Assembly: GCA_001920875.1 (NCBI GenBank)
Contig: MNKP01000027.1
Span: 1-35,974 of the forward strand
Origin: Acidobacteria bacterium 13_1_20CM_2_55_15
GTDB taxonomy: Bacteria; Acidobacteriota; Terriglobia; 20CM-2-55-15
Direction: 5' to 3'
Length of the DNA: 35,974 bases
Below are positions 11,903 to 26,329 of the stretch, one piece after another. The number at the start of each line of letters is the position of its first letter. Within the stretch, counting starts at the first letter, position 1. The position numbers were made by a program, and so were the translations under genes. The notes beneath the pieces are model-generated. The model saw only the letters and a list, made by a program, of their open reading frames with translations, did not search any database and was not told the DNA's origin.

Positions 11903-12916
11903 ATGGCAATTATCACGATTTCCCGTCTGACCGGCAGCGGCGGCCGCGAAATCGCGACTGCCACCGCTGAAGCTCTGAACTTTCAGCTCATCGATCGGTC
12001 GGCGATGGATATGGTGATCGACCAGCAGTTTCCCGTCCGGACCGAGCAGCTTTCTCGAATCAAGAAGGATCGCAAGGTATACGACGAGATGATGCGCTCG
12101 GCAATTGCCGAACTCGCAGCCGCGCACAACGTTGTGATCCTCGGCAGCGGAGCACAGTTTCTCTTTGCCCGAGTCGCTGCTTCGCTACACGTTCAAATCG
12201 TAGCGCCATTGCCCTATCGAATCGCCCGAGTCATGCGAACCGCTCAGGTCGATCGGCAGGAAGCCGAAAAAATAATCGCCGACCGGGATCGGGAGAAAGA
12301 GACATTCATCCGCACACTATACGGCAAGGACTGGCGCGATCCCGCCCATTACGATCTTGTTGTGAACATCGATCACTTCTCGAATGAAGTCGCCGTACAA
12401 ATCATCGTGAGGGCTGCGCGGGCAAAAGGTATTGAAGCAAAGCCGGTGGAACTGCCGCCACAGTTACGGGAAGAGATTCTGACGACAAAGCTTGATGTCG
12501 CGCAAATGGCCGATCTTGAACCCATCGAGGACAAGCTTCCCGAGTTTGCGCACCAGAGTGAGCGGGAATTTGCGCGTGTCATGGACTTCTACCGCATTCG
12601 TTGGCAGTACGAGCCCAAGACCTTCCCGATCGAATGGGATGAAAATCACAATGTCGTCAAAGCGTTCACCCCGGATTTTTATCTCCCGGATCTGGATCTT
12701 TTTATCGAGCTGACGACGATGAAACAAAGCCTCGTCACAAAAAAGAACCGCAAAGTACGGTTGCTTCGCGAACTCTATCCCGACGTGAATATCAAGATTC
12801 TTTACGAGCGCGATTACAAGAATCTGATTTGGAAGTATGGGTTAAACAACGGCGAGGAGAATAATGGGAACGGCGACGAGAAAATGAAAATTGAAAGACG
12901 AGAAAATGAAAATTGA
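11903..12916 (+). CDS. cytidylate-kinase-like protein with C-terminal PD-(D/E)XK-like domain
   Basis: N-terminus MAIITISRLTGSGGREIATATAEAL...; C-terminal SEREFARVMDFYRIRWQYEPKTFPIEWDENHNVVKAFTPDFYLPDLDLFIELTTMKQSLVTKKNRKVRLLRELYPDVNIKILYERDY. Confidence 0.8.
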   Translation: MAIITISRLTGSGGREIATATAEALNFQLIDRSAMDMVIDQQFPVRTEQLSRIKKDRKVYDEMMRSAIAELAAAHNVVILGSGAQFLFARVAASLHVQIVAPLPYRIARVMRTAQVDRQEAEKIIADRDREKETFIRTLYGKDWRDPAHYDLVVNIDHFSNEVAVQIIVRAARAKGIEAKPVELPPQLREEILTTKLDVAQMADLEPIEDKLPEFAHQSEREFARVMDFYRIRWQYEPKTFPIEWDENHNVVKAFTPDFYLPDLDLFIELTTMKQSLVTKKNRKVRLLRELYPDVNIKILYERDYKNLIWKYGLNNGEENNGNGDEKMKIERRENEN

Positions 12917-12918
12917 AA
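12875..12918 (+). repeat. 22-bp tandem duplication GACGAGAAAATGAAAATTGAAA x2
   Basis: 12875-12896 and 12897-12918 are identical; forms the C-terminal codons of the preceding CDS. Confidence 0.85.
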
Positions 12919-12943
12919 AATGATTAATGGATAAGGATCAATG

Positions 12944-13200
12944 AAAAGGTCCCGAGTGACCTTTAAGTTTCTGTCAAACTCCGCCGTGCGGCGGATGCCC
13001 ATCTCGGCTCTACGTTTTCTTGAATCGCCTTGACGCTTTGGGTTTCGAACTGGCGTCCGCCACCCTAAAGTTGCTCTGTATCGCTACCTAGCTCAGCGTT
13101 TCAGTAACAAGCCGCCTCGGTACTTTCTAGGGTACGTCAACGGCAACCTGCTCCGTAGTCTCGAGTCCGACTCGACCGAAACCGGAATCTCTCGGGACCT
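12944..13200 (-). ncRNA. candidate structured non-coding RNA, family not recognised
   Basis: 5' AGGUCCCGAG (13200-13191) is perfectly complementary to 3' CUCGGGACCU (12956-12947), followed by UUU; a consensus-like sigma70 promoter lies at the right distance upstream; several internal helices; no credible ORF. Confidence 0.7.
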
Positions 13201-13206
13201 GTTTTC

Positions 13207-13234
13207 AGTCTAGCACTCTGCAATTTTGTGTCAA
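13207..13234 (-). promoter_or_regulatory. sigma70-type promoter for the 12944-13200 RNA
   Basis: Minus strand: TTGACA (13234-13229), 16-nt spacer, TAGACT (13212-13207); predicted start ~13200 coincides with the 5' end of the closing stem. Confidence 0.65.
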
Positions 13235-13243
13235 GATCAAGTC

Positions 13244-13765
13244 GTGGCCGATGAGGTACTCGAAATTCTTTTTGACGAGCAACAAATTCGGGCCCGAGTT
13301 GCTGATCTCGCTCGGGAGATCACGAAAGAGTACGCGGGCCGCCGGCTCGTGTTGGTTTCCATTCTTCGCGGTTCGGTTTTCTTCGCTACGGACCTCGCTC
13401 GCCAGATCGAACTACCGCTCTCGATGGATTTCTTGTCGATTTCCAGTTACGGAGAGGACAGTGAAGGAGTTGTCAGAATCACAAAAGATCTGGAAGAAAA
13501 CATTGCCGGTAAAGATGTTCTTGTAATCGAAGACATCATCGATACCGGTTTTACGCTGAAATATCTTCTCCGCACGCTGGCCAGCCGAAATCCGAAGTCT
13601 CTCGAAGTCTGCGCGCTGTTGGACCGGCGCGCCCGCCGCATCATCGAAATTGAACTGAAATATATCGGCTTTGAGATTCCCGATAAGTTCGTTGTAGGGT
13701 ATGGTCTCGATTACCGGCAACGTTACCGGAACCTGCCGTACATCGGAGTGCTGAAGCCGGATTAA
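13244..13765 (+). CDS. hpt: hypoxanthine phosphoribosyltransferase
   Basis: VADEVLEILFDEQQIRARVADLAREITKEYAGRRLVLVSILRGSVFFATDLAR...VLVIEDIIDTGFTLKYLLRTL (PRPP motif). GTG 13244 preferred; the TTG at 13226 is an alternative. Confidence 0.93.
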   Translation: MADEVLEILFDEQQIRARVADLAREITKEYAGRRLVLVSILRGSVFFATDLARQIELPLSMDFLSISSYGEDSEGVVRITKDLEENIAGKDVLVIEDIIDTGFTLKYLLRTLASRNPKSLEVCALLDRRARRIIEIELKYIGFEIPDKFVVGYGLDYRQRYRNLPYIGVLKPD

Positions 13766-13766
13766 T

Positions 13767-13825
13767 TAATCATTAATCAATTCTCATTTGTCCATGAATG
13801 TGAAATGAGAATTGATTAATGATTA
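13767..13825. terminator. long perfect AT-rich hairpin between convergent genes
   Basis: 23-bp perfect inverted repeat (13767-13789 / 13803-13825), 13-nt loop; sits between hpt (+) and cdd (-). Confidence 0.7.
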
Positions 13826-24748: not shown

Positions 24749-24891
24749 CCTCTCCCTCTGGGAGAGAGCGACGCGCGAAGCGCGTCGGGTGAGGGTGCAA
24801 GATTTGCCGACTCCTTCAACCCTCACCCGGCGCTTTTATTCGTCGCGGCCTTCGGCCGCTCGCTGGCGCCGGCCTCTCCCAGAGGGAGAGG
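24749..24891. mobile_element. MITE/REP-like element with self-palindromic terminal inverted repeats (second type)
   Basis: CCTCTCCCTCTGGGAGAG (24749-24766) and CTCTCCCAGAGGGAGAGG (24874-24891) are exact reverse complements. Confidence 0.75.
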
Positions 24892-25643: not shown

Positions 25644-26329
25644 CAGTCTTCCGGAATAAATTTCTTCAGTTCTTCTTCGACCTTTTGCTGATACTTTGTG
25701 ACGTCGACGTCAGCCGGAACGGAAGCCCATTTTGCGCGAAACTGGCGGACGAAGTAAACGACCAGCAGAGCTCCAAAGGCAAGTGCGATGAACGGCATGA
25801 CCCACGCAGTCAGATTGAAGCCGGCAGCCGGCGGCGACGACAGCACCGTCAGACCGTACTTCTCGGCGAAACGCGCGATGATGGATTCATCGCTGTTGCC
25901 TTCATCGATCTGCGCGGCAAGTTCCGCCAACATCGGACCCGAGCTTGGACACCCGAAGTGATTGCACGTGGTCAGCATCTGATTGCACGTGCCGCAAACA
26001 CAGATGAACTTCTGGCCGAGTTCCTTGACGTGCTGGCGGTCGGCCGCAAGCGAAACAGGTGTGGCTGCGATAAGCAGAGACAGCAGCAGCTTGCTGATTA
26101 TTCCTCTCCTCCGAGAGGAGGGGTGGCGCGCAGCGCCGGGGTGGTCGGTTTGGCCGGAACGTCTCGCCGAGCTTTTATTGAGGCTTCGCCCTATCGGGCT
26201 GGCGCTTCGCGCCACCCCGTCTGCGCCGTTGCTTCGCTCGGCGCATCCTCGCCTCCTCTCGGAGGAGGGGAATAATAAAACAGAGCTAAACCTTCTCTTC
26301 AACCTCTTTGCGTTCCTCTTTGGACTCAA
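25643..26329 (-). CDS. ccmH: cytochrome c-type biogenesis protein CcmH (true N-terminus uncertain, see findings)
   Basis: ELGQKFICVCGTCNQMLTTCNHFGCPSSGPMLAELAAQIDEGNSDESIIARFAEKYGLTVLSSPPAAGFNLTAWVMPF. Native-looking sequence starts near 26101; the ORF continues upstream through an element. Confidence 0.9.
   Translation of the reverse strand: MSPKRNAKRLKRRFSSVLLFPSSERRRGCAERSNGADGVARSASPIGRSLNKSSARRSGQTDHPGAARHPSSRRRGIISKLLLSLLIAATPVSLAADRQHVKELGQKFICVCGTCNQMLTTCNHFGCPSSGPMLAELAAQIDEGNSDESIIARFAEKYGLTVLSSPPAAGFNLTAWVMPFIALAFGALLVVYFVRQFRAKWASVPADVDVTKYQQKVEEELKKFIPED
26100..26273. mobile_element. MITE/REP-like element, copy 2 (same family as 22361-22552)
   Basis: ATTCCTCTCCTCCGAGAGGAGGGG (26100-26123) versus CGCCTCCTCTCGGAGGAGGGGAAT (26250-26273), near-perfect inverted repeats; interior TGGCGCGCAGCGCCGGGGTGGTC and TATTGAGGCTTCGCCCT..CGGGCT.GCGCTTCGCGCCACC shared with copy 1. 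Confidence 0.8.

Follow-up and report, generated by a model that had tools for sequence, protein, structure and literature searches.

A probable free-standing structured RNA gene in one genus of soil Acidobacteria

The locus between a kinase-like gene and hpt

We analyzed a stretch of 35,974 nucleotides (the window) from the genome of Acidobacteria bacterium 13_1_20CM_2_55_15 (G000). Between a kinase-like gene and hpt, it contains a putative noncoding RNA gene on the opposite strand, preceded by promoter elements:

11903-12916, plus strand: upstream gene encoding a Cytidylate_kin2 domain (Pfam PF13189, E 1.3e-34, residues 3-158) and a conserved C-terminal region
12945-13200, minus strand: putative structured noncoding RNA gene of about 256 nt, running from about 13200 (5') to about 12944 (3')
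13207-13212, minus strand: -10 element TAGACT, with TG ahead of it and a 16-nt spacer (TAGACT, TATCCT or TACACT in six genomes)
13229-13234, minus strand: -35 element TTGACA, invariant in six genomes
13244-13765, plus strand: hpt, a purine phosphoribosyltransferase gene (Pfam PF00156), with a GTG start that is likely by comparison with relatives

The first-pass annotation had placed an antisense-oriented RNA between a kinase/nuclease gene and hpt. The kinase and hpt domains were borne out, while the nuclease part has no counterpart in Pfam, as the upstream protein has no match past residue 158. The C-terminal half of this protein is strongly conserved in relatives, and similar proteins occur in Clostridiales. 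The hpt gene is located among nucleoside-salvage genes, and its likely GTG start is about 10 bp from the -35 element of the RNA. Each member of the genus also carries a second hpt-like gene elsewhere, 46-51% identical (G000:C100:7577-8080 and equivalents).

The promoter TTGACA-16-TAGACT is of the sigma-70 type, stops 6 nt ahead of the RNA start and is the only promoter-like match within 12700-13500. Taken by itself the match would mean little, given that shuffled sequences yield 0.6. All five genus mates compared (Acidobacteria Gp5 soil MAGs) have this promoter-RNA unit in the corresponding position, and in all six genomes the promoter spacer is exactly 16 nt, the gap to the RNA is 6-7 nt and the flanking genes are the Cytidylate_kin2 protein and hpt. 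The promoter proposed earlier (13234-13207, minus strand, with a start at about 13200) is therefore present and kept in six of six genomes. The RNA is single copy. Four genus mates have full-length homologues, 72-86% identical in a DNA search, and the fifth (G002), located by synteny, has a short form of 180 nt without one side domain.

In G002 there are about 180 extra bp between the RNA and hpt, and the promoter-RNA unit is intact. Between the promoter of this short RNA and hpt lies a near-perfect palindrome of about 100 bp (L038, 2734-2841), which gave miRNA-precursor scores below cut-off on either strand and is likely a REP or MITE-like insertion. In the window, a perfect 23-bp AT-rich inverted repeat with a 13-nt spacer lies just past hpt (13767-13825). 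Its core AATTGATTAATGAT recurs at 12911, 13824 and 31371 with at most 2 mismatches (5 matches versus 0.3 expected), which suggests an interspersed repeat. Two imperfect GC-rich inverted-repeat pairs of 26-30 nt, with arms 91-120 nt apart, are found at 26097-26276 and 24749-24891.

No credible ORF had been seen over the RNA, and this stands: the sole notable one (62 aa, 12814-13002) was ruled out as a conserved small ORF because its ATG start is missing in the sixth homologue, G002.

In related genomes the two flanking genes are found together. In G008 the kinase and hpt frames share 4 nt, and the matches to both genes are adjacent on the same strand in G021, G028 and G011. By this gene order, the RNA cassette interrupts an ancestral kinase-hpt pair head-on, in this genus only, having either arisen there or inserted.

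Conserved fold, RNA ends and transcribed strand

The minus strand (262 nt) has a minimum free energy of -103.2 kcal/mol (z = -4.86), and none of 200 shuffles was as good; across the homologues, single-sequence z-scores range from -3.3 to -5.3 on the same strand. The consensus is a multi-branched structure of 78 pairs in 12 helices, whose main elements are:

13191-13200, minus strand: closing helix P1 (helix 1), 5' strand AGGUCCCGAG, pairing with 12947-12956; 94.4% of cells paired
12947-12956, minus strand: closing helix P1, 3' strand CUCGGGACCU, pairing with 13191-13200
12945-12964, minus strand: alternative, terminator-like 3' hairpin that excludes P1 (folding energies between -6.1 and -7.8 kcal/mol across the six genomes)
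13154-13165, minus strand: 5' strand of helices 4/5, CUCG...CUACG, pairing with 13003-13014, with a variable purine-rich internal loop
13003-13014, minus strand: 3' strand of helices 4/5, CGUAG...CGAG, pairing with 13154-13165
13106-13152, minus strand: helices 6 and 7, a long arm tipped by GUAC-CCUAGAAA-GUAC, with U-A replaced by C-G and G-C by A-U
13021-13102, minus strand: side domain of helices 8-11, mostly missing from the short homologue G002
13073-13092, minus strand: helix 9 with the GNRA tetraloop GCGA (GUGA, GAAA, GAGA and GAAA in relatives)
13046-13059, minus strand: helix 11, CGGAC-GCCA-GUUCG; paired in 100% of cells, with compensatory changes at two pairs
12981-12994, minus strand: helix 12, a CCGCC-GCAC-GGCGG hairpin with an invariant GCAC loop; in two genomes a C-G pair is replaced by U-A, a compensatory change

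Over the whole consensus, 91.4% of cells are paired; shuffles reach 86.6% and slid controls 29-40%, although the alignment comprises six sequences from one genus and the structure was derived from them, so that the controls are flattered. Helices 2, 8 and 10 are paired in just 75-81% of cells. Compensatory changes affect 18 pairs, compared with a shuffle mean of 9.9, and none of 500 shuffles reached as high a number. Conservation and covariation in relatives, proposed earlier as a check on the RNA, are thus found in the six genomes that share it. Some of the helices first drawn by eye are part of this structure: CUCG..CUACG/CGUAG..CGAG and CCGCCG/CGGCGG were right, and GUUU/AAAC was roughly so. 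Two others were rejected, since the pseudoknot UUGACG/CGUCAA and the helix ACCCUA/UAGGGU both break in relatives without compensation.

The two ends of the RNA are tied to each other. The 10-mer AGGUCCCGAG (13200-13191) is exactly complementary to CUCGGGACCU (12956-12947), which is followed by UUU as first reported, and the pairing is near-invariant in six genomes. We also found a hairpin that was absent from the first-pass annotation, AAAGGUC-ACUCGG-GACCUUUU, which is formed by the last ~20 nt and kept in all six genomes (5-7 bp stem, 6-nt loop). U-rich sequence follows it in five of the six; G002 has no U-run. The hairpin and P1 are mutually exclusive because the 3' strand of the hairpin also forms P1 with the 5' end. 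Read on the plus strand, 12945-12964 is again a terminator-like site, just past the stop codon of the kinase gene, and the hairpin may end both convergent transcripts.

Several measures bear on the transcribed strand. The minus-strand consensus folds at -66.5 kcal/mol and the plus-strand one at -39.1, with covariation terms of -0.94 and +3.19 (unfavourable), respectively; the z-score of the G000 sequence weakens from the value given above to -2.50 on the plus strand. The minus-strand structure contains 63 G-U versus 7 A-C cells, a biased count, since this strand was used to derive the structure. Wherever helix 9 is present (five genomes), a GNRA tetraloop caps it, on a covarying stem and in four sequence versions (GCGA, GUGA, GAAA and GAGA). 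The consensus energies and these loops of varying sequence settled the strand as minus.

These results weigh heavily against a 5' leader or riboswitch of the purine salvage gene hpt on the plus strand. Such an element would be well placed directly upstream of hpt, a neighbour of nucleoside-salvage genes, but the plus strand folds far worse in relatives, the G-U asymmetry and the GNRA loops suit the minus strand alone, the minus-strand promoter keeps its position next to the RNA and the RNA-hpt distance differs in G002. The leader hypothesis is largely refuted, and we consider it very improbable.

The position of the RNA also raises the possibility of a cis-acting antisense RNA, which would pair with read-through kinase-hpt mRNA and, through RNase III, split or damp the operon, or else act by promoter collision. 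The RNA lies on the opposite strand, covers the entire spacer of the kinase-hpt mRNA and sits where an ancient gene pair is interrupted in this genus only, and its terminator-like hairpin reads on the plus strand too. Antisense pairing, however, requires no kept fold, so it leaves the compensatory changes and the GNRA loops unexplained, and G002 keeps the RNA even though hpt is farther away. We regard this explanation as unlikely.

As expected of a free-standing noncoding RNA, a promoter and a terminator-like hairpin of its own are kept with the RNA, and the covarying conserved structure lies on the transcribed strand. Comparison supports a minus-strand RNA gene selected for its fold, and a free-standing noncoding RNA gene at 12945-13200 is, from the sequences, very probable.

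Distribution and comparison with known RNA families

We searched for further homologues with covariance models. The model built from the RNA itself (R1) matches 12945-13200 with 267.6 bits. A model trained without G002 (R2) recovers the short homologue with 88.1 bits, while a sequence-only model (R3) finds it as two fragments that score 39.4 and 19.9 bits. The covariance model found the six genus members alone in scans of 40 relatives, of the class (399 genomes) and of the phylum (396 genomes). These samples overlap and amount to about 800 Acidobacteriota genomes, and filters were stricter in the large scans. Matches of 17-25 bits in the class and phylum samples were mostly a GC-rich hairpin with broken pairs, and the three of these loci whose ORFs were listed (L098, L100 and L101) were called chance because they overlap long ORFs. 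Outside the genus, BLASTN gave nothing but short chance matches of 16-42 nt, and the records that match most of the six loci carry names of Acidobacteria Gp5 MAGs. Plasmids and phages contained no match to the RNA; four viral contigs that match a 17-base motif were unsupported by the structure model. The earlier description of the RNA as "housekeeping-type" is unsupported, since the search of these Acidobacteriota genomes turned up no relative beyond the genus.

Rfam 15 gave no match in the window at the gathering cut-off, and no convincing family match to the RNA locus at E up to 10. On the homologous loci, it gave just miRNA-like matches to the unrelated palindrome and chance matches below cut-off. 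A strong Rfam match, which would have made this a known RNA, was thus not obtained. The hallmarks of RNase P RNA, tmRNA and SRP RNA had been reported as missing, in agreement with the absence of a match to any of these family models at the locus, and ARAGORN detected no tmRNA in the window.

A divergent 6S RNA had been suggested, and the size and long closing helix are indeed reminiscent of 6S. Like 6S RNA (RF00013), the RNA is free-standing, with a long closing helix and a small hairpin on the 3' side of an opened region. However, 6S RNA is a rod with a single large central bubble, whereas the RNA described here has a multi-branched core with three branch points, and the 6S model gives it no score even at E = 10. 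A canonical 6S RNA is present elsewhere in G000 (C132:6886-7076, 58.9 bits, over cut-off), as are canonical SRP and RNase P RNAs over cut-off. A tmRNA was found in four genus mates; G000 and G001, both incomplete assemblies, have no match over cut-off. As not even weak matches of these families occur at the locus, a divergent 6S, SRP, RNase P or tmRNA is a highly implausible identity, and the first three are refuted as sole copies.

Clade-restricted, free-standing structured RNAs are an already known kind, some of them listed for Acidobacteria (PMC2864571). Among these, Acido-1 (RF01686) and Acido-Lenti-1 (RF01687) are structured acidobacterial RNAs that were classed as not cis-regulatory (PMC2864571); both are Rfam families and neither matches the RNA. 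Solibacter-1 and Soil-1 are acidobacterial or soil candidate motifs with no Rfam accession listed (PMC2864571), and resemble the RNA in this origin. Compared with the Rfam families, the RNA appears to form a new family, and in the genomes searched it is confined to one genus. The initial proposal, a structured RNA that is transcribed on its own and belongs to a class not yet described, is supported in six genomes by the locus and promoter together with structure and covariation, and by the lack of an Rfam match.

Possible mode of action

Few bacterial RNAs are large and richly folded, and the understood ones tend to be ribozymes or cores of ribonucleoproteins. In the model that we propose, the main sigma factor would initiate a minus-strand transcript at about 13200, and this transcript would adopt the conserved 12-helix fold. 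The last 20 nt would form the terminator-like hairpin and terminate transcription co-transcriptionally. After termination the hairpin would open and its 3' strand would pair with the 5' end to form P1, giving a compact, end-sealed and stable RNA. In trans, this RNA may be the RNA part of a ribonucleoprotein, either as a scaffold or by sequestering protein. Transcription through the RNA, head-on inside the former kinase-hpt operon, may affect hpt as a side effect.

We favor a ribonucleoprotein over long base-pairing because the RNA is mostly folded and its invariant unpaired bases are in hairpin loops and junctions (the UAGAAA loop, the GCAC loop and a GAAAACG junction). We give a trans-acting role of this kind roughly even chances; for the RNA gene and this mechanism together, a blended judgment is that the account is probably correct. 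The raiA-motif RNA (ModT) offers a works-like comparison: it is described as a conserved structured bacterial RNA, studied as trans-acting and noncoding, in over 2,500 species (PMC11706538). It belongs to other phyla, and the RNA described here matches no Rfam family.

The alternative in trans is an sRNA that base-pairs with target mRNAs through an exposed seed, for which the CCUAGAAA loop is one candidate. The near-invariance of this loop in six genomes would fit a seed, and a promoter of its own with a terminator-like end is sRNA-style. Yet the RNA is bigger and more folded than typical base-pairing sRNAs, and the loop differs in G004 (UAGCAA). We consider a base-pairing sRNA improbable, to the same degree as the cis-antisense explanation. 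The UAGAAAG loop also appears complementary to the 16S 3' tail, a candidate pairing that was set aside since it is broken in G004.

The side domain (helices 8-11) is dispensable or modular because G002 lacks most of it. Tentatively, and with rather low confidence, this could be a new class of large, intricately folded RNA, either a ribonucleoprotein core or catalytic, that was born in one soil acidobacterial genus within an ancestral operon. Its side domain would be modular, and the terminator hairpin and the end-sealing helix would be the two states of a switch.

The RNA comes from an uncultivated soil lineage and has no Rfam family. Because related genomes show the site without the RNA, the locus is useful for studying the origin of RNA genes and would give a direct view of the birth or landing of a complex RNA gene inside an operon. 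The six homologues, one of them naturally trimmed, already define a testable core.
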